In this document: positions 1,140-21,925 of the stretch, piece after piece
Numbering within the stretch: the stretch's first letter is position 1
Layout: each line of letters begins with the position of its first letter
Origin: Bacteroidales bacterium UBA4345
GTDB taxonomy: Bacteria; Bacteroidota; Bacteroidia; Bacteroidales; Paludibacteraceae
Direction: 5' to 3'
Assembly (NCBI GenBank): GCA_002396385.1
Contig: DGTD01000090.1
Location: 1 to 29,589 of the forward strand
DNA length: 29,589 nt
The notes under the pieces: model-generated
Seen by the model: the letters and a program-made list of their open reading frames with translations, nothing else
Database searches by the model: none
Told to the model about the DNA's origin: nothing
Translations under genes and position numbers: made by a program

Positions 1140-2333
1140 TTATTCGCCTAAGTGAAAATAGTCGGCGTATGTGTTCATATCTTTGTCGCCACGGCCTGAA
1201 ACGGTGAGGACTACGACGTCGTCTTTCTTGAATCTGCATTTTGGCAGCACTGCTAATGCATGTGCACTTTCTATTGCCGGTATAATGCCCTCTGTCTTTG
1301 TGAGTTCAAGGGCCGCTGCCATCGCCTCTTTGTCGGTTACTGCAAACACTTTGCTTCTGCCCTTGTCTGCCAAGAAGGCGTGCATAGGGCCAATGCCCGG
1401 ATAGTCGAGACCTGCTGAAATGGAGAAGGCTTCTGTTATTTGGCCGTCATCGTCCATCATAATCAGTGTCTTGCTCCCGTGCAATACACCTTCCCGGCCC
1501 AGATGTATGGTGGCCGCACTCTTGGTTGGGTCTTCCAAACCTTCTCCTGCAGCTTCTGCCGCATAAAGTTTCACGTTTTCATCTTCAATGTAGTGGAAGA
1601 ATGTTCCTGCCGCATTGCTGCCTCCGCCTACACAGGCAATCAGGTAGTCTGGGTTCTCGCGGCCTTCCTGTGCTTTCAACTGCTTCTTGATTTCTTCGCT
1701 GATGACCGACTGGAAACGGGCAACCATATCGGGGAATGGATCTGGTCCAACTACAGAACCTATGATGTAGTGTGTGTTTGCAGGATTGCAGCACCAGTCG
1801 CGGATAGCCTCGTTTGTTGCGTCTTTAAGTGTTGCGTTTCCTGTTGTAACAGGAACGACTTTTGCTCCCAACATACGCATTCGCTGAACGTTCAGGTATT
1901 GGCGTTTCACGTCGGTTGCACCCATGTAGACCACACACTCCATATTCATAAGTGCGCATACGGTTGCGGTACCTACTCCGTGTTGGCCGGCGCCTGTTTC
2001 CGCTACAATGCGGGTTTTCCCCATCCGTTTGGCCAGTAAGAGCTGCCCAAGCGCATTGTTTAGCTTGTGGGCTCCTGTGTGGCAGAGGTCCTCGCGTTTC
2101 AAATACAGCTTGCAACCGTATTTCTCGCTCATCCGTTTAGCGTAATAGAGTGGAGTGGGGCGGCCTACGTAGTCGTGGAGTAATTGGTCTAACTCTGCTT
2201 TGAACGTTGGGTCGTTCATTATTTTCAGATAGTTCGCCTTTAATTCTGTGATGTTCTTTTGTAGAATTTCAGGGACATAAGCACCTCCGAATCGGCCGTA
2301 GTAGCCATTTTCGTCAATTCCGTATTTGCTCAT
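1140..2333 (-). CDS. trpB: Tryptophan synthase beta chain
   Basis: Pyridoxal-phosphate enzyme that joins indole and serine to make tryptophan, normally in an alpha2-beta2 complex with TrpA. The 397-residue product has the usual length. HTGAHKLNNALG places the PLP lysine at about residue 90, and GGGSNAAG forms the phosphate-binding loop. I chose the ATG at 2331-2333 (MSKYGIDENGYYGRFGGAYV) because the conserved TrpB N-terminus begins there. A longer in-frame reading from a GTG at 2453 would translate through the attenuator terminator hairpin and matches nothing known at a TrpB N-terminus. Being the first structural gene after the leader peptide, trpB heads the operon, an order known from Bacteroides trp operons (trpB, trpE, trpG, trpD, trpC, trpF, trpA). 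No frameshift or missing key residue is apparent. Confidence 0.97.
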   Translation of the reverse strand: MSKYGIDENGYYGRFGGAYVPEILQKNITELKANYLKIMNDPTFKAELDQLLHDYVGRPTPLYYAKRMSEKYGCKLYLKREDLCHTGAHKLNNALGQLLLAKRMGKTRIVAETGAGQHGVGTATVCALMNMECVVYMGATDVKRQYLNVQRMRMLGAKVVPVTTGNATLKDATNEAIRDWCCNPANTHYIIGSVVGPDPFPDMVARFQSVISEEIKKQLKAQEGRENPDYLIACVGGGSNAAGTFFHYIEDENVKLYAAEAAGEGLEDPTKSAATIHLGREGVLHGSKTLIMMDDDGQITEAFSISAGLDYPGIGPMHAFLADKGRSKVFAVTDKEAMAAALELTKTEGIIPAIESAHALAVLPKCRFKKDDVVVLTVSGRGDKDMNTYADYFHLGE

Positions 2334-2369: not shown

Positions 2370-2408
2370 ATAAAAAAGAAGGTCTGTCGTGAGTTTCTCC
2401 GACAGACC
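2370..2408 (-). terminator. Attenuator terminator in the trp leader
   Basis: On the minus strand a perfect 9-bp stem (2400-2408 with 2381-2389, GGTCTGTCG type) encloses a 10-base loop and is followed by TTCTTTTTTAT at 2370-2380. It lies 36 bases upstream of the trpB ATG and 50 bases after the leader-peptide stop, so it would stop transcription before the structural genes unless prevented. Confidence 0.85.
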
Positions 2409-2455
2409 TTGATATGTCTTTGCTGTTAAATAAAACACAGAAGAGTCACTCACGA
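2387..2455 (-). promoter_or_regulatory. Candidate antiterminator pairing in the trp leader
   Basis: TCGTGAGT at 2448-2455, just past the leader-peptide stop codon, is perfectly complementary over 8 bases to ACTCACGA at 2387-2394, which is the terminator loop plus the top of its 3' arm. A further TTCT/AGAA match lies next to it across a small bulge. The two structures cannot form together, giving a plausible 2:3 versus 3:4 switch. The pairing was read by eye; relative stabilities were not computed. Confidence 0.6.
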
Positions 2456-2457
2456 AT

Positions 2458-2508
2458 TTAGTTTCGCAAGCGCCACCACCATACTTTATTTAAAGTCTTC
2501 AATGTCAT
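2458..2508 (-). CDS. trpL: trp operon leader peptide with three tandem Trp codons
   Basis: A 16-codon open frame upstream of trpB reads MTLKTLNKVWWWRLRN and stops at TAA (2458-2460). The three Trp codons (TGG TGG TGG) occupy 2473-2481. Such a Trp run in a very short frame before trpB is the hallmark of transcription attenuation as known from enterobacterial trpL. The start ATG (2506-2508) sits about 20 bases after a plausible minus-7 element. Downstream come a segment able to pair with the terminator loop and then a terminator with a T-run, in the right order and spacing for ribosome-stalling control. A ribosome stalled on the Trp codons would leave 2448-2455 free; a ribosome at the stop codon would cover it. 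Function is inferred from this architecture. Confidence 0.88.
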   Translation of the reverse strand: MTLKTLNKVWWWRLRN

Positions 2509-2527: not shown

Positions 2528-2558
2528 CAAATTTGAAAATAATATTCAAATAAAACAA
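2528..2558 (-). promoter_or_regulatory. Candidate trp operon promoter
   Basis: On the minus strand CAAATTTG (2528-2535, followed by CAC) is one base off the Bacteroidetes minus-7 consensus TAnnTTTG. A TTG at 2556-2558 lies 20 bases upstream, the expected spacing for the minus-33 element. Transcription would start about 15-20 bases before the leader-peptide ATG. Confidence 0.4.
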
Positions 2559-2854
2559 TATTTTATTTACTTTTTGTGCGATTGGTCCGCATGTTTTTTC
2601 GTTTTTCGCATAATTATCTTTTCTGTCAGTAAGGTTCTTCCCTGACTTATGAGAATATGCTCTTCTTGTAAGACTGGAGTCCTTTCTTCTTACAACCTAT
2701 GTATCTTTGCCCATCTGCGTGTTGAATGAAAAAGTATCTTGTTTTTTCCTGCTTCTACGTAAATTAATCGTATCTTTATATTGTTATATCTGGAATGAGG
2801 AAGAGGTTTACGGCCGCCTGTAATTCTTTGGTGTACCTTTAGCTCCTTTTGCTT
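2559..2854. other. Intergenic region between divergent trp and DUF5131 units
   Basis: AT-rich non-coding stretch between the trp leader and the DUF5131 gene; with the trp leader region it makes a gap of about 345 bases without a recognised protein gene beyond the leader peptide. It holds an 8-bp inverted repeat TTGTAAGA/TCTTACAA (2666-2673 and 2688-2695) just upstream of a TAnnTTTG match, and three copies of GTATCTT starting at 2701, 2734 and 2770. No RNA gene or convincing small ORF was recognised. Confidence 0.5.
2702..2709 (+). promoter_or_regulatory. Candidate minus-7 element for the DUF5131 unit
   Basis: TATCTTTG matches TAnnTTTG exactly and is followed by C, as in most other promoters of this window. 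No good minus-33 TTTG lies 19-21 bases upstream, and the implied leader is long (about 140 bases), so this is tentative. TATCTTTA at 2771-2778 is a weaker alternative. Confidence 0.35.
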
Positions 2855-3655
2855 ATGTTGAAATGGGAAATATATGCTGATTGGAATCCTTGGCACGGTT
2901 GTACTAAAATAAGTCCTGGCTGTAAATTCTGTTATGTATATCGCCAAGACGAGATGTACGGGTGTGAGGTGTCGAGTTGTCTGGCTCGCAAAACGGGCAA
3001 TTTCAATCTTCCTGTCAGGAAAAAACGCGATGGAACGTGGAAAATACCTGACGGACGTATCGTGTTTACTTGTTTTACTTCCGATTTCTTGCTTTCCGAT
3101 GCTGATGAGTGGCGGCAAGAATGCTGGCAGATGATGCGTGAGAGAGAGAACCTGTGGTTTTACTTTTTTACCAAGCGAATCGACCGTTTTATGGACTGTC
3201 TTCCGACCGATTGGGGTGATGGCTATGACAATGTGCTGGTTGGATGTACGGTCGAAAATCAGGATTTGGCCGATTACCGTCTCCCTATTTTCCGACAACT
3301 GCCAATCAAACACAAAAGCATCATTGTTTCCCCTATGATTGGTCCTGTCGATTTGTCTCCTTATCTCGACGACGGTATAGAGGAGGTTGCGGTAGGTGGC
3401 GAATCGGGTGTGAATGCGCGGCCTTGCCATTTCGAGTGGATATTGGCTGTTCGCGAACAGTGTGTCGCTGCCAACGTCCCTTTCCGTTTCCACCAAACTG
3501 GTGCGTTCTTTGTGAAGGATGGGAAAACTTACCGTGTGAAACGCTGTTTCCAGCTTAGCCAGGCTCATAAAGCCAATATCGATTTCCGAATAGACAAATA
3601 TATGGTTCCGGAAACAGTGAAATATGTATGGAAAGACTCCGATTATCACGATTGA
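2855..3655 (+). CDS. DUF5131 (phage Gp37/Gp68-like) family protein
   Basis: The product begins MLKWEIYADWNPWHGC and carries the family signature WNPWHGCTKISPGCKFCY, in which three cysteines are spaced C-x6-C-x2-C at about residues 16-26, compatible with iron-sulfur or metal binding as in radical-SAM-like proteins. Further family-like segments include FTKRIDR and VAVGGESG. The reaction is not known. I prefer the ATG at 2855 over a TTG at 2849, giving 266 residues. Members occur in phages and as stand-alone bacterial genes; no phage gene lies nearby here. The PNPOx-fold gene follows after 70 bases with no clear terminator between, so co-transcription is possible. A long antisense frame over this gene lacks any recognisable family and is rejected. 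Confidence 0.82.
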   Translation: MLKWEIYADWNPWHGCTKISPGCKFCYVYRQDEMYGCEVSSCLARKTGNFNLPVRKKRDGTWKIPDGRIVFTCFTSDFLLSDADEWRQECWQMMRERENLWFYFFTKRIDRFMDCLPTDWGDGYDNVLVGCTVENQDLADYRLPIFRQLPIKHKSIIVSPMIGPVDLSPYLDDGIEEVAVGGESGVNARPCHFEWILAVREQCVAANVPFRFHQTGAFFVKDGKTYRVKRCFQLSQAHKANIDFRIDKYMVPETVKYVWKDSDYHD

Positions 3656-3725: not shown

Positions 3726-4160
3726 ATGACGAAAGAACAGATTTTTGAAATTATTAATGGTATGAAGCCTCCGGTTATGCATCTGGCAACATCGGAGAAC
3801 GGACAGCCTCATGTGCGCGACATTTTGCTCTTCAGTGCCGATGAGAATGGTATCGTCTTCCACACTGGCAAAATGAAGGACTTGTTCAAACAGCTTTTAG
3901 CAAACCCGAAAGCCGAGGTCTGCTTTTCGGCAGGGAAATACCAAGTGCGTGTCGAGGGCGAGTTTGAACTGGTTGATGATGATGACTTCAAACGCGAAAT
4001 CATCAATCATCCGTCCCGTAAATTTGTTAAAGCCTGGGTGGCAGAACAGGGCGAGGCGGCAGTTCTTGACTTTTTGCAGGTTTTCCGTATGAAACATGGC
4101 AAAGCCCATGTCTGGACATTTGAAGATAATTTCAAACCTAAGGAATATGTAATTCTCTGA
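3726..4160 (+). CDS. Pyridoxamine 5'-phosphate oxidase-fold (flavin-binding) protein
   Basis: A 144-residue protein with the split-barrel flavin-binding fold of the PNPOx-like superfamily. Characteristic features are MHLATSENGQPHVRD near the N-terminus, FHTGKMKDLFKQL in the middle, AEVCFSAGKYQVRVEGEFEL as a central strand pair, and a C-terminal AHVWTFEDN. Small members of this superfamily bind FMN, F420 or heme-like cofactors and act as general oxidoreductases; true PdxH is longer, so vitamin B6 synthesis is not implied. No signal peptide is visible, so it should be cytoplasmic. It follows the DUF5131 gene by 70 bases and converges on the feoB unit, with the shared hairpin at 4175-4210 as terminator. 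Confidence 0.85.
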   Translation: MTKEQIFEIINGMKPPVMHLATSENGQPHVRDILLFSADENGIVFHTGKMKDLFKQLLANPKAEVCFSAGKYQVRVEGEFELVDDDDFKREIINHPSRKFVKAWVAEQGEAAVLDFLQVFRMKHGKAHVWTFEDNFKPKEYVIL

Positions 4161-4174
4161 TGGTGGGTGTTTAA

Positions 4175-4210
4175 ACAAAAAAAAGCAGGGCTAACCCTGC
4201 TTTTTTTGTT
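4175..4210. terminator. Bidirectional terminator between PNPOx-like gene and feo unit
   Basis: GCAGGG (4185-4190) and CCCTGC (4195-4200) form a GC stem with a 4-base loop, flanked by an A-run on the left and a T-run on the right that extend the pairing. It works as a rho-independent terminator on either strand. The stop codon of the FeoB-associated peptide (4191-4193) lies in the loop, so the hairpin overlaps the last codons of that gene. Confidence 0.88.
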
Positions 4211-4376
4211 GACTAGTTTTGTCTGTTGCCTTGTTGTTGCAGCACTGGCAGCCACCTGCTTTGGAGCAGCAACTGCAGGCATCGGCTTGTCCATTCACAA
4301 GTCTGATAATCTTTCTCGCAATGACGAGGACGACCGCTATGCCTATGATGGCGACAATTATTTCTTGGATTCCCAT
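4191..4376 (-). CDS. FeoB-associated Cys-rich membrane peptide
   Basis: A 61-residue protein with one N-terminal transmembrane segment (MGIQEIIVAIIGIAVVLVIA), a short basic stretch (RKIIRLVNG), then a cysteine cluster with C-x-C-C and C-x-C-C pairs (CSCC and CQCC, about residues 34-45) and a Lys/Gln-rich tail. This is the layout of the FeoB-associated Cys-rich family. It starts 11 bases after the feoB stop, so it is in the same operon. A role at the inner membrane in Fe(II) handling or in FeoB function is inferred from family and context; the mechanism is not established. The final codons overlap the bidirectional terminator. Confidence 0.85.
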   Translation of the reverse strand: MGIQEIIVAIIGIAVVLVIARKIIRLVNGQADACSCCSKAGGCQCCNNKATDKTSQQKKQG

Positions 4377-13454: not shown

Positions 13455-16400
13455 ATGAGAAAAGTTCTATTATCATTATCATTGTTTTGCGCTGCCACCT
13501 CTGCCTCCATGGCAATGAAGGTTACAGGTAAGGTCGCCGACGAATCCGGTGGGCTTCCTGGTGCCAGCGTTATGATCAAAGGTACCGACGAAGGTGTCGA
13601 GACCGATGACGAAGGTAACTTTACTATCGAAGCCAATCAGGGCCAGATTTTGGTCATTGAGTACATCGGCTTCGACACTAAAGAGGTGAAAGTGACTGGT
13701 GCTAAGTTGAAGAAGATTGTCCTTGGTGATAGTGGAGGTGAAATGATCGAGACCATCACTGTGAAAGGAGCCCAAGTTTATGGTGGCGATGCTGCCGTAA
13801 TCGGTTCTGCTACAGGCTTGAGCGCAGAAAACCTGAAACACGCTCAGGGTGCTTCTGTCGACAATGCACTGCAGGGTCGTGTTGCCGGTGTGCAGGCTTC
13901 AACCACTTCAGGTCAGCCAGGTGCACCAGCTAAGATTACCATTCACGGTACTTCAACCCTTACAGGTTCGGCTGAACCTTTGTACGTTGTCGATGGTATG
14001 CCGTTGGGTGGTGGTACAGATAAGAGTGCAAGTTCTAACCCGCTTGCTTCTATCAACCCTGCCGATATCGAAACAATGTCGGTGTTGAAAGACGCTTCTG
14101 CTACCGCTATCTATGGTGCGCGTGCATCTAACGGTGTCATTGTCATCACTACCAAGAAAGGTAAGAATGGTAATGCGAAGATTTCGTATAACGGAAACTT
14201 CAATGTGTCTGAATTCACCAACCGTCTTAAGATGATGAACTTGCAGGAATATGCAGCTTATGTGGGTTCAACACAGATCATCCAAGACCGTCAGAATACT
14301 CCTGACTCTTACCTCTTAAACCCATCAGTTTTGGGTAAAGGTACCGATTGGCAGGACGAACTCTTCCAGACCGCCATTGGTCACAGCCACCAGTTGTCGG
14401 TAAACGGTGGTAACGAGAAGAGCGTGTACAATATCTCTCTCGGTTATACTAACCAGGAAGGTGTGCTCATTACCTCTAACTACGAACGTATTAACGGACG
14501 TATGTCGGTTGAGTCGCAAGTGAAGGATTGGTTGAGGGCTGGTATGAACGTGGGTATCGCCCGCCAGAATTCTACCAAGATTGCCAACATTATCGATCCT
14601 AAGGCTCAGTCAAGCGGTGCTTCTTGTGTGTCGTTTAAAGAAACTGACGAGAACATCATTGTTCAGACTTTGTTGCAGTTGCCTTCCGACTCTCCTTACA
14701 ACTTGGATGGTACCGTTTCTGGTCCTGAAACCGACCTCGGTGTAAAGATGAACCCTATCGCCCAGTTGAAACAGTCGCCTGTTGAACGTGAGGAGTTGAA
14801 TGTGTTGGGTTCTACTTTCTTGGAGTTCAAATTGTTTAAAGAAATTACATGGCGTAACGAATTCGGTATTGACCTTACTACCGCCAGCGACAGCTACAAC
14901 CAGCCTGCTTATAACTATGGCGCTTTGAAGAAGGGTGCTGACCAGGCAACTCTCAACGAAGGTAGTTACTCAAACAACTCGGTTCGTTTCAGCTCGTATG
15001 CCAATTACAGCCACAAGTTTGCTAAGAAGCACACTGTAAGTGCGATGCTCGGTGCTGAGTCGAACTATTACAACTGGAAGGGTCAGGTTTTCCAGGGTAA
15101 GGGTTACTCGCAAGATGCAATTGCTACTCTGAATCTGGCTTCTCAGTGCAACCTCTCTAACTATTATGAGGGTCACGGCTCAATGGCTTCTTTCTTCGGT
15201 CGTTTGGGTTATGACTACCAAGGCCGTTACATTCTCAGCGCAACCGGCCGTTACGATGGTAGCTCTAACTTCGCCGAAGGTAACCAGTGGGGCTTCTTCC
15301 CATCAATCGGTTTGGCTTGGCGTGCTAGCAACGAGAACTTCATTGCCGAGAATGACAAGCTCAAGAACACAATTACCGACTTGAAACTCCGTCTCGGTTA
15401 TGGTGAGACCGGTAATGCGAACTGCTCTTCTGCCCACATTGCTTACTTGTCTAAGTGGAATGCTACTAAACCGGCTTACGACTTGTACCACTATTATAAC
15501 TATACGAACAACAACCTCAGCTGGGAAACTAACAAACAGTTCAACGTTGGTTTGAACCTTAGCTTGTGGAACCGTATCGACCTCACTGTCGATGGCTTCT
15601 ACAAACAGAACGAAGACTTGTTGCTGAAACCACAGTTGCCAGGTTGGTTGGCTCCAAACGATGGTGGTTGGACTTTCTTGAACACCGCTTATGTGAATGC
15701 TGGTTCTATCAAGAACGTCGGTTTCGATGTGGCTTTGCACTCTGTTAACGTTATCGACTCTTTCTTGCACCAGCCATTCCAGTGGGATATGGACCTTTCG
15801 CTCTCAGTTGTCCGCAACGAGGTTGTTGACCTTGGTTCTTCAACCGAAGCTATCACCGAAAGTTCAGACCCTTCCGGTGTTTACCGTATGTTCTCAACCA
15901 ATATCGAGATCAACCGCTCGGTTAAGGGTGAGGCTCCAGGCCGCTTCTATGGTTACAAGACCAACGGCATTATCCAGAATACTGCCGAGTTGAACGAATA
16001 CAAGGCTGCTACCGGACGTTCTGCTAACGTTGGTGACGTTAAGTACGAGGCTGAAAAGTCGTTTATCGGTGATCCTAACCCAGACTTCACTTACGGTTTC
16101 GGAACCAATGTGTCTTGGGGTCCTTGGTCACTTAACTTCCAGTTGGCAGGTTCTCAGGGTAACGACGTTTACAACCTGATCCGTCAGAAGTTGGAAGCTC
16201 AGTCTGACCGTTGGGTGAACCAGTCTGCAGACTGTTTGAACTATGCCCAGATTGTTAAGAACGAGGCTGGCGAATATGTTGCTAACCCTGGTACTTCTAT
16301 GCCACGTTCTGAGTACACTAACGATGCGAACGATAATGCGAAGTCTGTATCTGACCGTTATGTAGAAGACGGCTCTTACTTGAAGATCCAGAATATCGGT

Positions 16401-16607
16401 CTTACTTACACACTGCCTTCTAAGTACTGCCAGAAGCTCAAGATCGACAATCTGCATGTCAGCGCAGGCGTTTCTAACGTTTATACCTTCACCAAATACA
16501 CTGGCTACGACCCTGAAAACCCAGGTAGCGCAATCCGTCAGGGTGTAGACGAAGGCCGTTACCCTTCTCCACGTGTATATAACGTAGGTTTAGGTTTCAA
16601 CTTCTAA
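13455..16607 (+). CDS. SusC/RagA-family TonB-dependent outer-membrane transporter
   Basis: A 1050-residue outer-membrane transporter that imports a ligand captured by the SusD partner using TonB energy. It has a cleavable signal peptide (MRKVLLSLSLFCAATSASMA), a carboxypeptidase-regulatory-like beta domain (about 22-90, KVTGKVADESGGLPGASVMIKG), a plug domain (about 115-225, with ALQGRVAGVQ, ITIHGTSTLTGSAEPLYVVDG and DASATAIYGARASNGVIVITTKKG), and a long beta barrel ending NVGLGFNF with a terminal Phe. No STN signalling domain is present, so signalling to an anti-sigma factor is unlikely. The SusD-like gene follows after 31 bases. Codons are strongly restricted, pointing to high expression. 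The substrate is unknown because no degrading enzyme is encoded nearby. Confidence 0.96.
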   Translation: MRKVLLSLSLFCAATSASMAMKVTGKVADESGGLPGASVMIKGTDEGVETDDEGNFTIEANQGQILVIEYIGFDTKEVKVTGAKLKKIVLGDSGGEMIETITVKGAQVYGGDAAVIGSATGLSAENLKHAQGASVDNALQGRVAGVQASTTSGQPGAPAKITIHGTSTLTGSAEPLYVVDGMPLGGGTDKSASSNPLASINPADIETMSVLKDASATAIYGARASNGVIVITTKKGKNGNAKISYNGNFNVSEFTNRLKMMNLQEYAAYVGSTQIIQDRQNTPDSYLLNPSVLGKGTDWQDELFQTAIGHSHQLSVNGGNEKSVYNISLGYTNQEGVLITSNYERINGRMSVESQVKDWLRAGMNVGIARQNSTKIANIIDPKAQSSGASCVSFKETDENIIVQTLLQLPSDSPYNLDGTVSGPETDLGVKMNPIAQLKQSPVEREELNVLGSTFLEFKLFKEITWRNEFGIDLTTASDSYNQPAYNYGALKKGADQATLNEGSYSNNSVRFSSYANYSHKFAKKHTVSAMLGAESNYYNWKGQVFQGKGYSQDAIATLNLASQCNLSNYYEGHGSMASFFGRLGYDYQGRYILSATGRYDGSSNFAEGNQWGFFPSIGLAWRASNENFIAENDKLKNTITDLKLRLGYGETGNANCSSAHIAYLSKWNATKPAYDLYHYYNYTNNNLSWETNKQFNVGLNLSLWNRIDLTVDGFYKQNEDLLLKPQLPGWLAPNDGGWTFLNTAYVNAGSIKNVGFDVALHSVNVIDSFLHQPFQWDMDLSLSVVRNEVVDLGSSTEAITESSDPSGVYRMFSTNIEINRSVKGEAPGRFYGYKTNGIIQNTAELNEYKAATGRSANVGDVKYEAEKSFIGDPNPDFTYGFGTNVSWGPWSLNFQLAGSQGNDVYNLIRQKLEAQSDRWVNQSADCLNYAQIVKNEAGEYVANPGTSMPRSEYTNDANDNAKSVSDRYVEDGSYLKIQNIGLTYTLPSKYCQKLKIDNLHVSAGVSNVYTFTKYTGYDPENPGSAIRQGVDEGRYPSPRVYNVGLGFNF

Positions 16608-16638
16608 TAACAGAAAAAAATAAAAGGAAAATTATAAT

Positions 16639-18552
16639 ATGAAGCAATTCAAGTTAATTCCACTTGCTGTTCTCGCTTCTCTTACCATGAGCTCGTGTGA
16701 CGACCTTTTGGAAAAAGATTCGATGGACACTGTAACTATCGACCAGTACCTTACTACTGACGATAACTTGAGGTCTTTCACCTACTCGCTTTACGGCCCT
16801 TATGCTTGGACTAATTACGAGTCTAAGTTCTCTTGGTGTGCTAACGAGTTGACCGTTGGTAACGTATATCATAACTACAGCGACGAAGGCTCTTTCTTCT
16901 TCCTGAACTTCGGTGCGGCTAACGCGCATCTGCTCGATGGCTACCAGGCTCTTTACGGTGTTGTCAGCCGTTGTAATATGATTATTAACAACATTGAAAG
17001 CCAGTGTGGTAGCGGTGTGTCTAAAGCTGCTATCGACAGGGCTAAGGGTGAGGCTCACCTTTTCCGTGGCTTGTGCTACTTCTTGTTGACCGAGTATTGG
17101 GGCGAGACTTACCTCATTTTGAACAACGAGAATGTCATCACTGGCGATAACGGATTTACTGTGCCAAAGGCTAGCCGTGCTTGTCTGTATGCCCAGGCCG
17201 AGAAAGACTTCGCAACCGCTGGTGCTTTGTTGCCAGATAAGCGTTGGGGACTGTATGGCGAGCGTCCTGCAAAGTGTGCTGCCTATGGTATGCTGGCTAA
17301 GTTGTACCTGACTATGGGTGCTGCTGCAACCAACGATATAGCTGTAGCGGCTCATCCGTTCGCTGCTGACCGTTCTTTCCAGGAATACAACCAGTTGGCT
17401 ATTAACTACGCTACTTTGGCTCTTAGCACTGCTCCTGCAATGACGCCTACAGACAATTATGAAAACTTGTTCTGGCCAATGTCGTACAACCCTGAGAACC
17501 TCTTCAGCCTTCATTTTGAAGATGGCCCTTATGGTGCCGGTGCATGCCGTCAGCAACAGTTTGGCCGTTCTTGCTATATGACACAGGCTGAAGACTACTA
17601 TGGTGGTGAGAAAGGCTTGACTGTCAGCTTGTTTAAGTCGTTTGAGGAAGGCGATGTCCGTAAGAAGGCTTGCTGTTACTATACCGACCAGGCTAACGAC
17701 AAACCTGCAACTGGTGATTTGGATCCTAACAATCCGACTGCCGGCCGTTCTCCTATCTACAAAATGTACGCCGATGCCGCTTATGCATACTACTACAACC
17801 CGAACAAGACTTTTGTAGACAAGAAGGGTAACACAATCTCTCCTTATGGCTCTGAGCCTATGTCTCCATGTTTGAACGCTTGCCGTAAGTTTGTTTATGG
17901 TGTACATTTGACCAACAAGTTCTCGGCTCCGCTTTCTTTCGCATGGCTCCGTACCGCCGATTTGTATCTGATCCGTGCTGAGGCTAAGATGGCTTTGCAG
18001 TCGGGTGCTGTCAATGTGTCAACGAAAGTGACCGATGGTTTGGAAGACATCAACATGGTTCGTGTACGTGCCGGTTTGGCTAAATATACCCAGCCAGTGG
18101 CTTTCTACGACACTGACCCTGCTGTTCAGACCGATGTTACTTACAGTGGCGACGATGGCAAGACTTTCCCTAAGTACACTACTTACAGCGACACTTACGA
18201 CTTGCTTGAAGAGCGTCGTCATGAATTCGCGTTGGAGTGCCAGAACTGGTTAGACGCTAAACGCCTTTACTACCGTAACGCATTCGCTGGTAACGAATTC
18301 TTGCAGCACCAAGACCGTGCCGCTACTTATGGCCAGGCTTATGGTGTAGAGACTTTTGTTAAGGGTATTAGCGATTTGCAGCGTCAGAAGGAAATCAATA
18401 TGATTGATCCTACCCAACCTGCAGAAACTGAATTGGATTATTCTAACGTTTCTTGGTTCTTCCCAATTCCAGCTACTATCCAGAACTCTGGAAGTAACGC
18501 AGCTCTTTATACCGACGTAAATGCGGTTAAGGCTGGTGCTTATCCTTATTAA
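16639..18552 (+). CDS. SusD/RagB-family surface nutrient-binding lipoprotein
   Basis: A 637-residue lid protein that sits on the SusC barrel and binds the ligand at the cell surface. It starts with a lipoprotein signal peptide with lipobox MSSC (Cys20) followed by DDLLEKDSMD. The SusD N-terminal helical repeat part includes RAKGEAHLFRGLCYFLLTEYWG (typical 'RGEARFLRAFYYF' region), and the C-terminal part has FAWLRTADLYLIRAEAKMA, DINMVRVRAGL and LLEERRHEFALECQNWLDAKR, all hallmarks of the family. It is on the long side for SusD. It lies 31 bases after SusC and 28 bases before the glycan-binding-like gene, so all three form one operon ended by the hairpin at 20166-20199. Ligand not predictable. 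Confidence 0.96.
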   Translation: MKQFKLIPLAVLASLTMSSCDDLLEKDSMDTVTIDQYLTTDDNLRSFTYSLYGPYAWTNYESKFSWCANELTVGNVYHNYSDEGSFFFLNFGAANAHLLDGYQALYGVVSRCNMIINNIESQCGSGVSKAAIDRAKGEAHLFRGLCYFLLTEYWGETYLILNNENVITGDNGFTVPKASRACLYAQAEKDFATAGALLPDKRWGLYGERPAKCAAYGMLAKLYLTMGAAATNDIAVAAHPFAADRSFQEYNQLAINYATLALSTAPAMTPTDNYENLFWPMSYNPENLFSLHFEDGPYGAGACRQQQFGRSCYMTQAEDYYGGEKGLTVSLFKSFEEGDVRKKACCYYTDQANDKPATGDLDPNNPTAGRSPIYKMYADAAYAYYYNPNKTFVDKKGNTISPYGSEPMSPCLNACRKFVYGVHLTNKFSAPLSFAWLRTADLYLIRAEAKMALQSGAVNVSTKVTDGLEDINMVRVRAGLAKYTQPVAFYDTDPAVQTDVTYSGDDGKTFPKYTTYSDTYDLLEERRHEFALECQNWLDAKRLYYRNAFAGNEFLQHQDRAATYGQAYGVETFVKGISDLQRQKEINMIDPTQPAETELDYSNVSWFFPIPATIQNSGSNAALYTDVNAVKAGAYPY

Positions 18553-18580
18553 TTTGTTTGATTAACTTTAAAAGACAAAC

Positions 18581-20143
18581 ATGAAAAAATATTCAATATT
18601 AGTCGCATCGGCGTTGGCATCTTTGGCTGCCTTCACTTCTTGTGACGATACGAATGACTGTGGATGTGCTTGTAACGTCCCTGTTATTGAGAGTGTTGAG
18701 AAACTCGACCAGGCCGGTGTAAACATCGCTGGTAATGTGGAGGCGGGCACTTATGTCGCTCTCTTGGGTCAAAACTTGGGTGATGTGACTTCTATCCAGT
18801 TCGGTGACAGAAATGTGGCTATCAGGCCTGCTTACCGTACCGACAACTCTATCGTCCTTCAAATTCCTAGCGTAACCAAGTCTTGTGTAGGTACATTGCT
18901 TACCAGCTCTTGCCCTACCGGTTACGCAATGAACCAGTTGACCATCGTGATTGGTACACCTACTGTTTACATGATGTATAACGAGTTTGTTGCCGATGGC
19001 GATACGCTTATGCTCCGTGGATCGAACTTTGTAGGCGACCAGATGCAGGTCGATTTCACATTGACGAACGGTCAGGTTTACACTGCGCATGGCGACGACA
19101 TCATCCTGCCGTCTAACGATGGTAGCCAGATGTACGTGAAAGTGCCTGCAGGCGCTGCTCCTCAGCAGTACTTGAAGGTTCGTAACGGCGCCGAAAATAA
19201 GGAAAGCGTATGTAACATCATGTTCCGCGATACACGTAATGTGTTCGCAGATTGGGATAACGACCTTGAGTCTTTGTACTCGACTGGTGCTATTGCCAAG
19301 CAGGCTGATGGCTCTTACGCAATGGTTAGCGACGTCATTGATTGGTTAGGCGAAGTTCCACCACTTTATTCTTCAATACCAGGTGCTAACAAGTTTGGTG
19401 TGATTCGTGATGCCGAAGCCTGGGAAGGTATCTTGTTCGCTCCAGAAGCGAATGGTACTGCGTATGAGGATGTCCGTTCTGTCTTTGGTCCTTTCAAAGA
19501 GGCTATAAAGGCAAATCCGGCTTCTGCGTCTAACTATGTGGTTAAGTTTGAAGTTCGTGTTCCTTCTAAATATCCGACTAAGATGATGTGTTTGGCGATG
19601 GGCTTCACAAGAGCTTCGCAAGATACACCAGATAGAATTCGTCCATATTGTGCCGGTTTCCAGGCAAGTAAGATTAATTGGGACAAGAGCTCTGCTGAAG
19701 AAGGATGGAAGCTGAGTAGTTTTTCAGACTTCAGCACTTACAACGGCAAATGGATGACAATTCAGGTTCCGATGGATGAGTTTATGTGGAATTTCTCTAA
19801 TGGTAACTACATCACCTCTGCGCAGAACTTTACTGAAGGCAAGTTCGATGGCGAGTCTGACCAGCAGTTCTTTGGCGATCCAACGCATGTCAGCTATGTC
19901 CAGAAGTACCAGAGCAAACTTTCTGACGACGAAGACCTCTACGAATTCTTTGGTGGCTTTGCTTTCAGCTTCAACCCATACGATGGTCCTCAGAACAGTG
20001 GAAACAAGAACTCGCATTTTGCTATCGACAACATCCGAATCGTTCCTAACGATGGTAACGGCGCTTACTATCCTAAACTCGGTTGGGGTGTGCCAAGACA
20101 GCACTACTTCGAGGCTCCAAGAAAGTCGGCTTTTGCCAACTAA
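18581..20143 (+). CDS. Surface glycan-binding-like lipoprotein (IPT/TIG plus C-terminal binding domain)
   Basis: A 520-residue lipoprotein with lipobox FTSC (Cys21) followed directly by an unusual cluster with Cys27, Cys29 and Cys31 (DDTNDCGCACN). Two Ig-like IPT/TIG domains follow (about 34-120: VIESVEKLDQAGVNIAG, AGTYVALLGQNLGDVTSIQFGD; about 125-215: GDTLMLRGSNFVGDQMQVDF). A larger C-terminal domain (about 225-520) contains FEVRVPSKYP, WMTIQVPMDEF and SHFAIDNIRIVP, as in surface glycan-binding proteins placed after susD in polysaccharide utilisation loci. It probably captures ligand on the cell surface for the SusCD pair. Whether the ligand is a glycan is unproven, because no glycoside hydrolase is encoded nearby. 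Confidence 0.82.
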   Translation: MKKYSILVASALASLAAFTSCDDTNDCGCACNVPVIESVEKLDQAGVNIAGNVEAGTYVALLGQNLGDVTSIQFGDRNVAIRPAYRTDNSIVLQIPSVTKSCVGTLLTSSCPTGYAMNQLTIVIGTPTVYMMYNEFVADGDTLMLRGSNFVGDQMQVDFTLTNGQVYTAHGDDIILPSNDGSQMYVKVPAGAAPQQYLKVRNGAENKESVCNIMFRDTRNVFADWDNDLESLYSTGAIAKQADGSYAMVSDVIDWLGEVPPLYSSIPGANKFGVIRDAEAWEGILFAPEANGTAYEDVRSVFGPFKEAIKANPASASNYVVKFEVRVPSKYPTKMMCLAMGFTRASQDTPDRIRPYCAGFQASKINWDKSSAEEGWKLSSFSDFSTYNGKWMTIQVPMDEFMWNFSNGNYITSAQNFTEGKFDGESDQQFFGDPTHVSYVQKYQSKLSDDEDLYEFFGGFAFSFNPYDGPQNSGNKNSHFAIDNIRIVPNDGNGAYYPKLGWGVPRQHYFEAPRKSAFAN

Positions 20144-20165
20144 TTCTTGAATGAGAATATGTTTA

Positions 20166-20199
20166 GAAGCCCGTTGGATTTCCAACGGGCTTCTTTTTT
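20166..20199 (+). terminator. Terminator of the SusCD operon
   Basis: A perfect 12-bp stem (20166-20177 with 20182-20193, GAAGCCCGTTGG type) with a 4-base loop is followed by six T residues. It begins 23 bases after the last stop codon of the operon. Confidence 0.95.
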
Positions 20200-20290
20200 G
20201 TTTCCATTAATTTTTTTTATTGGTTATTCTTTGGTAATTTAGCAACTCAAATTAAAGGCTTTGCCAATTTATTAATTAAATATATACTGT

Positions 20291-21925
20291 ATGAAGAAAC
20301 ATTTACTTTCTTTTGCTCTTTTGGCAGGTTTGGTAGCTACAGCCTCTGCCGATGAGTTTTATGTGATCAAGGACGGTAAGTTCGTTGACGGCGTTGAAGT
20401 CCTTGAATACGATGACCCTGCCGATGGTCCTAAAGTGGAAGAGACTACCGCACCTGACGCTTCTGCTGCTGTGTCTGTAACACACCAGAAGTATTGTACT
20501 GAAGCTCGTTTCTATGTTGCCAATGGTATTGATTTGACTCGTACTTGGGAAGTTGAGATTGAATACTACTATGAGGCTGTTGACTCAATTCTACATTCTG
20601 GCGGCAATAAGTGGGAGGTTATCAATATTGGTCTGCATACCGATACGACTATTGTAAAGTATAACCCTAAGTCTAAGAAAGATACCGTCATCGGTCAATA
20701 CACCCTTTCTGGTGTTGTCTCTGATAACACATTCAACGTGAAGAACAAGACTAAGGCCAACACTTGGAATGTAGAGAAACAGTTCGTTTACACTCCAAAC
20801 AACATTAATACCGTTAAGGAAATTGTGTTTGGCTGGCAGCGTCAGTTGGGGAAGACTGATGAAGAGGAAATCCTTAACGCCAAGCCAGTTTACATTAAGA
20901 ATTTGAAATTTGTGGGTGAAGGTAACAAACCTTTCTTCTATGAAGACTTTGATTCTTATGGCTTTGGTCCTCACTATGGTATTGGAACTGATGGTGTTAA
21001 CTATTATGTGATTACCGACGAAGGTGTAACTGAATATAGCGGTTCAACTGTAAATGCTGAGGCTAGTGGTCTTACTGAAAATCCGTTCAAATGCCAGTTG
21101 AAATGGTATACAGTTCAGGATATGGGTGTTAAATACTCTCAGAAGCAGACTTCCCTTTCTTTGACTCGTTTGTTCGAGGATAAGGGATCTGATGGCTCTG
21201 GCTATTACGATACAGAACTTCTTCACGCTCTGTGTCTTAATCGTCCTACAAATACGGGAACCCGTTCTGCTGCCGGTCTGAACGGACGAGCATTCGTTTT
21301 GATTCCTACTTGTGGTTTGGAAGGTACTACTAATATTACAGTAGACTTCCTTTCAAAATGGAAATCATCTGAGAAAACTGAAGTTTTCGCAGAGTCTGCC
21401 GATAGCTTGGTTCTGCCTATCAAGTACGCTTATGTTGACGATGCTATTGAAGCTTCTACATGCGACTTGACCCTTGTTACTGAAGAGCCTTTGTCTTCTG
21501 TTTGGGCTGCTTATTCTGCTAAGATTCCTTATACTTCATCGAAGAAGTATCTGGCTTTGGTATTCGATAAGGCTGAGTTCTTGTCTTATGTTGTAGACAA
21601 CCTCCGTTTGACTTCAGACGCTGTTTCTGCTCCACAGATTACCGAAGAGGTGGTTTATCCTAACCAGTTCGAGTGCTATACTGCATCTGTTGATAATGTA
21701 GAGGCTGATGTTGAAGAGGCTGTTGTTTATCCAAACCCTGCAACTGACGTTATCTCTGTTGGCAACGAAGGTGTAGAAAGTGTTGAAGTGTTGAACACTC
21801 TTGGCGCTGTAGTCGCTTCAGCTGCTGGCAACCAGGTTAATGTTGCAAATTTGGCTTCTGGTCTTTACATCGTGAAGGGTAACACTGCTAACGGTGTTGT
21901 AACTGCTAAGATTGTTAAGAAGTAA
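20291..21925 (+). CDS. Secreted protein with T9SS type A C-terminal sorting domain
   Basis: A 544-residue exported protein. It has a cleavable signal peptide (MKKHLLSFALLAGLVATASA, then DEF), a beta-rich middle with FFYEDFDSYGFG typical of jelly-roll or 'choice-of-anchor' domains, and a C-terminal sorting domain of about 66 residues starting VVYPNPATDVISV, continuing through LYIVKGN and ending KIVKK. This is the Por/type IX secretion signal: the domain is removed and the protein released or anchored outside. No catalytic motif was recognised. It lies after the SusCD terminator and has its own terminator, so it is a separate unit; upstream, TTTG (20230-20233) and AGGCTTTG (20256-20263) could be a weak promoter. 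It shares the restricted codon usage of the SusCD genes. Confidence 0.85.
   Translation: MKKHLLSFALLAGLVATASADEFYVIKDGKFVDGVEVLEYDDPADGPKVEETTAPDASAAVSVTHQKYCTEARFYVANGIDLTRTWEVEIEYYYEAVDSILHSGGNKWEVINIGLHTDTTIVKYNPKSKKDTVIGQYTLSGVVSDNTFNVKNKTKANTWNVEKQFVYTPNNINTVKEIVFGWQRQLGKTDEEEILNAKPVYIKNLKFVGEGNKPFFYEDFDSYGFGPHYGIGTDGVNYYVITDEGVTEYSGSTVNAEASGLTENPFKCQLKWYTVQDMGVKYSQKQTSLSLTRLFEDKGSDGSGYYDTELLHALCLNRPTNTGTRSAAGLNGRAFVLIPTCGLEGTTNITVDFLSKWKSSEKTEVFAESADSLVLPIKYAYVDDAIEASTCDLTLVTEEPLSSVWAAYSAKIPYTSSKKYLALVFDKAEFLSYVVDNLRLTSDAVSAPQITEEVVYPNQFECYTASVDNVEADVEEAVVYPNPATDVISVGNEGVESVEVLNTLGAVVASAAGNQVNVANLASGLYIVKGNTANGVVTAKIVKK

Follow-up and report, generated by a model that had tools for sequence, protein, structure and literature searches.

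The leader upstream of trpB in our window (the whole 29,589-nucleotide stretch of DNA analysed) is very probably, at about 0.92, a tryptophan attenuator of the Bacteroid-trp type that works by ribosome stalling. We infer stalling, termination and the response to tryptophan in cells from conserved Trp codons, covarying alternative helices and a modelled dependence on ribosome position, which together support the ribosome-stalling control proposed in a preliminary description of this DNA. Reading the minus strand directly, we found the 16-codon leader frame MTLKTLNKVWWWRLRN where that description had put it, with its ATG at 2508-2506 and its stop codon at 2460-2458 (2458-2508 in all), and with three adjacent Trp (TGG) codons at 2473-2481. 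In the E. coli trpL leader, the position of the ribosome chooses among a 1:2 stem, an antiterminator and a terminator. The present leader is similar in that its leader peptide has adjacent Trp codons and the position of the ribosome is predicted to pick the helix; as in attenuators of the E. coli type, a frame with consecutive Trp codons adjoins mutually exclusive helices.

All of the RNA elements lie on the minus strand. Folding and covariation define a segment 1 (2463-2472), which is the 5' side of the 1:2 stem and lies within the leader frame directly past the Trp codons, and a segment 2 (2447-2456) just past the stop codon. The 1:2 stem itself (2472-2463 with 2456-2447) had been left unstated in the preliminary description. 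Segment 2 can pair either with segment 1 or, through 2455-2448, with 2394-2387 in the loop and 3' arm of the terminator. The complementarity previously claimed for the second pairing is exact: UCGUGAGU (2455-2448) matches 8/8 bases of ACUCACGA (2394-2387), the antiterminator partner in the terminator loop and upper 3' arm, which is likewise supported by folding and covariation. A second part of the antiterminator strand, CUCU at 2442-2445, is predicted by folding only; beyond a 2x2 internal loop, its partner would be 2400-2397 in the uppermost part of the terminator 5' arm, with a probability of about 0.78 in stalled states. The terminator is also where it had been placed, with a T-run and then trpB behind it. 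Its 5' arm GGUCUGUCG (2400-2408) and 3' arm CGACAGACC (2381-2389), identified from sequence, folding and covariation, form 9 bp that are lengthened by GAG/CUC and AA/UU. The U-tract UUCUUUUUU, read from the sequence at 2372-2380, ends 38 nt from the trpB ATG at 2333. The 171-nt leader has a folding energy of -46.3 kcal/mol (z = -4.08), which none of 200 shuffles equalled.

We modelled the switch by equilibrium folding of the growing RNA, taken to be free from 13 nt past the first base of the A-site codon, an offset for the ribosome footprint that we assumed. With the A site occupied by any of the three Trp codons, the predicted probability of the antiterminator was 0.96 when the RNA extended to 2387 and 0.97-0.98 when it extended to 2386; at 2384 it was 0.62, 0.97 and 0.98 for Trp codons 1, 2 and 3, respectively. 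The terminator was predicted to displace it at 2383 for codon 1 and at 2382-2381 for codons 2 and 3. When the ribosome was absent or stood at the stop codon, the modelled antiterminator stayed at 0.00 throughout, and the terminator increased from roughly 0.1 (RNA to 2388) to 1.00 (RNA to 2381). The mutually exclusive structures that folding was expected to reveal thus appear in the model as a switch between antiterminator and terminator by ribosome position. Once the whole terminator is out, it is predicted to beat the antiterminator at equilibrium in every ribosome state, which means that antitermination would have to be kinetic. RNA polymerase encloses about 14 nt of transcript; if this is the case here, the modelled antiterminator would prevail while the U-tract is being synthesised.

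The proposed sequence of events would be as follows. Transcription would begin just upstream of the 16-codon frame. If charged tRNA-Trp runs short, the ribosome would wait on the three Trp codons and cover segment 1, so that segment 2 could pair with the loop and 3' arm of the terminator. The resulting antiterminator would persist during passage of the polymerase over the U-tract, allowing transcription of trpB, trpE and the remaining genes. When tryptophan is plentiful, the ribosome would reach the stop codon and cover segment 2, or would depart and allow the 1:2 stem to form; in either case the terminator would fold and transcription would end before trpB.

We looked for the same arrangement upstream of trpB in related genomes. 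Eighty named loci were fetched by TrpB similarity, and twenty-six (the window included) came from genomes of the family. A leader, defined as an ATG-started frame with WW or WRW, was present in 71 of the 103 distinct TrpB-fetched loci with readable upstream DNA; this count includes one frame with WRW that is probably spurious (L119, weak terminator). Fifty-two of these seventy-one leaders have WWW, fifteen have WW and four have only WRW. We also screened the 340 nt upstream of trpB, using all 130 loci with trpB, of which twenty-three were fetched via the Rfam model and are biased toward leaders. Of 127 such regions (the window itself and two pairs of identical loci among them), 93 contained a frame of 8-45 codons that begins with ATG and encodes WW or WRW, compared with 97 of 6231 control stretches from the same loci. 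One locus with missing upstream DNA (L124) is outside the leader counts. The alignment of relatives called for in the preliminary description therefore yielded a conserved short Trp-rich frame, along with the covarying stems described below, and this conservation suggests that the frame is translated.

The same loci show that a leader in front of a trpB-led operon, which had been thought notable, is ordinary for Bacteroidales. No other trp gene was found in the 450 nt upstream of any of the 94 leader-bearing trpB genes, compared with 21 of the 33 leaderless ones, where it was trpA (thirteen), trpD (six) or a frame in the trpF position (two). Among the leaderless loci, six from Bacteroidales (L071-L073, L077, L078 and L080) have a rearranged operon in which a trpD-like gene immediately precedes trpB, and a leader was not detected there. 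Two of the twelve leaderless loci with no other trp gene found upstream are worth recording from inspection by eye: L092 has a trp leader with WWW and an apparent GTG start, and the leader of L132 retains a single Trp codon and is possibly a decaying attenuator. Two loci have records named Synergistales (L086) and Clostridium (L095) and carry trp leaders and Bacteroidales-like trpB genes (71 and 68 per cent identical); these are probably misnamed assemblies or bins.

The leader peptides also share N-x-x-WWW before and at the Trp codons, a recurrence beyond what stalling alone needs. The longer hairpin of the Rfam model accounts for only part of this recurrence. In TnaC, the nascent leader peptide arrests the ribosome, and a similar arrest here could sense free tryptophan or another ligand. 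Such an arrest would fit the recurrence of N-x-x-WWW and, in this order, of endings such as RLR or LQLKKS, as well as NNTWWW outside the order. On the other hand, the codons past WWW lie in the 1:2 stem, some of those before it lie in the longer hairpin (in both the Rfam model and the minimum-energy fold), residues farther upstream vary, and arrest at high tryptophan predicts the opposite sign of control. We consider arrest by the peptide itself very unlikely and continue with stalling on the Trp codons.

To examine the helices, we used an alignment (A1) of 84 of the 94 leaders. The identical copies L006 and L079 were left out, as were L119 and the seven leaders in which our script detected no terminator (L083, L107, L112, L123, L133, L134 and L137); the terminator of L059 was placed by hand. 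In A1, where kinship among sequences is ignored and related sequences inflate the counts, 84.8 per cent of cells are paired for the 1:2 stem and terminator jointly, with a covariation of 0.385 compared with 0.213 in shuffled alignments and at most 0.145 in slid versions. Pairing is highest in the main helix of the terminator (97.9 per cent of cells), followed by the inner part of the 1:2 stem (82.4 per cent), and reaches just 58.0 per cent in its outer part. For the antiterminator, in which segment 2 pairs with the loop and upper 3' arm of the terminator, 80.9 per cent of cells are paired across the eighty-four leaders, and the covariation is 0.222 compared with 0.163 shuffled (reached by 0/500) and at most 0.129 slid. 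One column pair (120/223) changes from G-C to A-U in thirteen rows, and another from U-A to C-G in eight. Three of five covariation measures for the antiterminator exceed the shuffles and two do not, namely double changes (six, reached by 278/500 shuffles) and further pair types (nineteen, reached by 94/500). We also paired the upstream strand of eighty-two leaders with the terminators of the others. A leader's own pairing exceeded the cross-species mean in 61/82 cases for the whole terminator, 55/82 for the loop and 3' arm, 44/82 for the 5' arm and 41/82 for the 3' arm alone, though this test is weak because the motif sequence is very conserved.

The flanks of the leader suggest that it probably has its own promoter, since the nearest upstream Pfam-matching frames (DUF5131, 2849-3655; PNPOx-like, 3726-4160) are on the opposite strand and the last gene-like frame on the same strand, ending at 4191, has a terminator-like hairpin of its own. 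The only long same-strand frame between the leader and 4191 (2690-3649) matches no family. A candidate -7 element, TTTG, is present in the sequence at 2528-2531 (minus strand), judged against what we take to be the Bacteroidota consensus; from it we infer that the transcript would start at about 2520. Of 94 leaders, 56 have the pattern TAnnTTTG no more than 75 nt upstream of their ATG, compared with 180 of 4700 control stretches. The window carries CAAATTTG and does not match the strict pattern.

These flanks bear on a simpler reading, in which an ordinary terminator, for example that of an upstream transcript, happens to stand beside a chance Trp-rich frame and senses no tryptophan. Intergenic terminators are common, and the small frame after feoB (4376-4191) shares the strand of the leader; however, that frame ends about 1.7 kb upstream with its own hairpin, and the Pfam-matching frames in between face the other way, with only the long frame of no known family on the same strand. 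Moreover, chance is hard to reconcile with Trp leader frames in most TrpB-fetched loci, with their frequency relative to the control stretches, or with covarying helices. This explanation deserves still less credence than arrest by the peptide, and the evidence continues to favour an attenuator. The frame after feoB (4191-4376, minus strand) is itself a small, Cys-rich, membrane-protein-like frame of 61 aa that directly follows that gene and is followed by the hairpin.

We next compared the leader with catalogued RNA families. No Rfam family was found in the window at its gathering score, and the reason there was no default-threshold match to RF01692 (Bacteroid-trp) is that the window copy scores 45 bits, under the cut-off of 49. 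A permissive scan of 2000-2900 gave this match an E-value of 6.4e-4. The alignment is full-length (model positions 1-131 of 131), with the hairpin over the leader frame and its stop codon, and in the whole genome there is one credible match (E = 5.8e-4), the next having an E-value of 4.66. A close relative (L059; TrpB 97 per cent identical, leader MNIKTLNKVWWWRLRN) scores 54.5 bits and is over the cut-off, which was reached in eight of the sixteen relatives' loci scanned, with the close relatives L005 and L060 under it. The window's score therefore reads as a threshold effect. The leader is directly upstream of a tryptophan biosynthesis gene, and among named relatives the closest are Paludibacteraceae and other Bacteroidales. 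Like Bacteroid-trp RNAs, which sit before trp genes in Bacteroidota, it has a Trp-rich frame and a hairpin over the Trp codons and stop. It is a further copy, just under the curated cut-off, of this catalogued family. The RF01692 model stops inside the 5' arm of the terminator (...AAGGCUUGUC), and the complete terminator and the antiterminator are absent from it.

The preliminary description called a clear trp attenuator in these bacteria notable, trp attenuation being best described in Proteobacteria; the implied rarity does not stand. RF01692, named 'Bacteroidete tryptophan peptide leader RNA' in Rfam, was described in 2010 (Weinberg et al. 2010; PMC2864571). In later reports, Bacteroid-trp is placed upstream of the trp operon of Flavobacterium psychrophilum and compared explicitly with the E. 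coli trp leader (2019; PMC6414381), a transcriptome of that species gives strong indications that leader peptides control amino-acid operons by attenuation (2021; PMC9723704), and leader-like short frames occur within long 5' UTRs in the Bacteroides thetaiotaomicron transcriptome (PMC7366714).

The scans also bear on other kinds of tryptophan sensor. Other phyla control trp operons through a T-box, TRAP or a tryptophan-binding RNA. We searched for T-box and other Rfam riboregulators and found none in the window at gathering score, nor any T-box in 2000-2900 up to an E-value of 5. That such sensors control trp operons elsewhere is what recommends a T-box (tRNA-Trp), TRAP binding or a tryptophan-binding RNA here, but the window matches no Rfam family at gathering score, the permissive scan returned just Bacteroid-trp and two enterobacterial sRNA models, and what is conserved is a short frame containing consecutive Trp codons, leaving this alternative scarcely credible beside attenuation by ribosome stalling.

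Where the leader seems to depart from E. coli is in the antiterminator, which, on the basis of folding and covariation, would capture not only the 5' arm of the terminator but also its loop and 3' arm. We folded eighty-three order-level leaders (the eighty-four of A1 minus L022) up to 6 nt short of the terminator end, placing the ribosome at the final Trp codon. In these folds the upstream strand formed a mean of 6.8 predicted pairs with the 5' arm and 7.0 with the loop and 3' arm, compared with 3.3 and 1.2 when it was shuffled. At least four pairs with the loop and 3' arm were present in 72/83 leaders (54/62 of those fetched by TrpB only), and 71/83 had at least four with both that region and the 5' arm; in 66/83 the real value for the loop and 3' arm was reached by at most 1 of 20 shuffles. 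The window has 8.1 predicted pairs with the 5' arm and 7.9 with the loop and 3' arm. In contrast, the E. coli trp leader, our single control, has 5.0 and 0.03 (shuffled, 4.1 and 1.4), its 5'-arm value being little above the shuffles; it is predicted to pair with the 5' arm only, while the conserved helix here is that with the loop and 3' arm, besides the predicted 5'-arm pairs. The two systems also differ in their first gene, which is trpB here and trpE in the E. coli trp operon.

This capture depends on how much of the terminator has been made. With the last 8, 6, 4 or 2 nt absent, at least four pairs with the loop and 3' arm were predicted in 74, 72, 51 and 14 of the 83 leaders. Capture would need most of the terminator and would be lost once it is complete, and a switch of this geometry would be a race decided while the polymerase crosses the U-tract. 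The eleven leaders that fell short at 6 nt were L021, L031, L040, L049, L076, L088, L093, L098, L120, L125 and L126, and in two of them (L021 and L125) the strongest pairing is with the terminator 5' arm and loop. L021 and L022 come closer to the E. coli geometry: both are WRWW leaders, and 13 bp form between the upstream strand and the 5' arm and loop of the terminator.

We then searched beyond the order with a model (R1) built here. The best eighteen R1 loci outside the order but in the same class (L141-L158) have a WWW leader and terminator as in the window, including leaders with NNTWWW, yet all eighteen precede trpE rather than trpB. The predicted pairing is similar, with means of 6.7 for the 5' arm and 6.7 for the loop and 3' arm (shuffled, 3.2 and 1.5). 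Seventeen of the eighteen (the exception is L149) have at least four pairs with the loop and 3' arm, and in sixteen at most 1 of 20 shuffles reached the real value. We see an even chance that Bacteroidia attenuators have a distinct geometry, in which the freed strand would capture the loop and 3' arm, in most cases along with the 5' arm, and turn the hairpin into a long duplex, as opposed to the pre-emption of the 5' arm in E. coli. This geometry was not found in the literature searched, whose supplements were outside our reach, and its novelty is provisional.

The window thus adds a well-delimited copy of a catalogued switch, no experimental study of Bacteroid-trp having been found in the literature searched, and it supplies a testable three-helix mechanism that the Rfam model lacks. 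If the antiterminator does capture the loop and 3' arm, it would be a second attenuation geometry, in bacteria that are abundant in the gut, and the family model could be rebuilt to find more members. R1 identified matches in 147 of 295 genomes of the order at an E-value of 0.01, and RF01692 in 60/295 at 0.1 (15/295 over its cut-off), a rough comparison in that the thresholds are unequal, R1 was partly trained on these genomes and the weaker matches are unchecked.

The operon downstream begins with trpB (1140-2333, minus strand; TIGR00263, 590.8 bits, cut-off 392.45), followed by a trpE truncated by the contig end (3-1115, minus strand). Its best NCBIfam match, TIGR00564, scores 286.2 bits, under the cut-off of 517.7, as does the full-length TrpE of L060 (410.9). 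The motif LMESS noted earlier is present in TrpE at residues 34-38 (1016-1002) and resembles what we take to be the feedback motif LLES. It is thus reasonable to propose two layers of tryptophan control, feedback inhibition being suggested by the motif. In L060, the best matches of the frames past trpB are trpE, anthranilate synthase component II (trpG), trpD, trpC, a frame without a name at the place of trpF, and trpA; only the trpD and trpA matches exceed their cut-offs.

Tryptophan synthesis looks patchily present in this family, with trpB found at an E-value of 1e-100 in 26 of 61 genomes (G000-G060) and in 22 of the 44 more complete ones. Elsewhere in the window, positions 13455-21925 form a probable glycan utilisation locus, with a SusC/SusD pair, a surface glycan-binding protein that matches a xyloglucan-binding domain, and a further protein bearing a type IX secretion tail.
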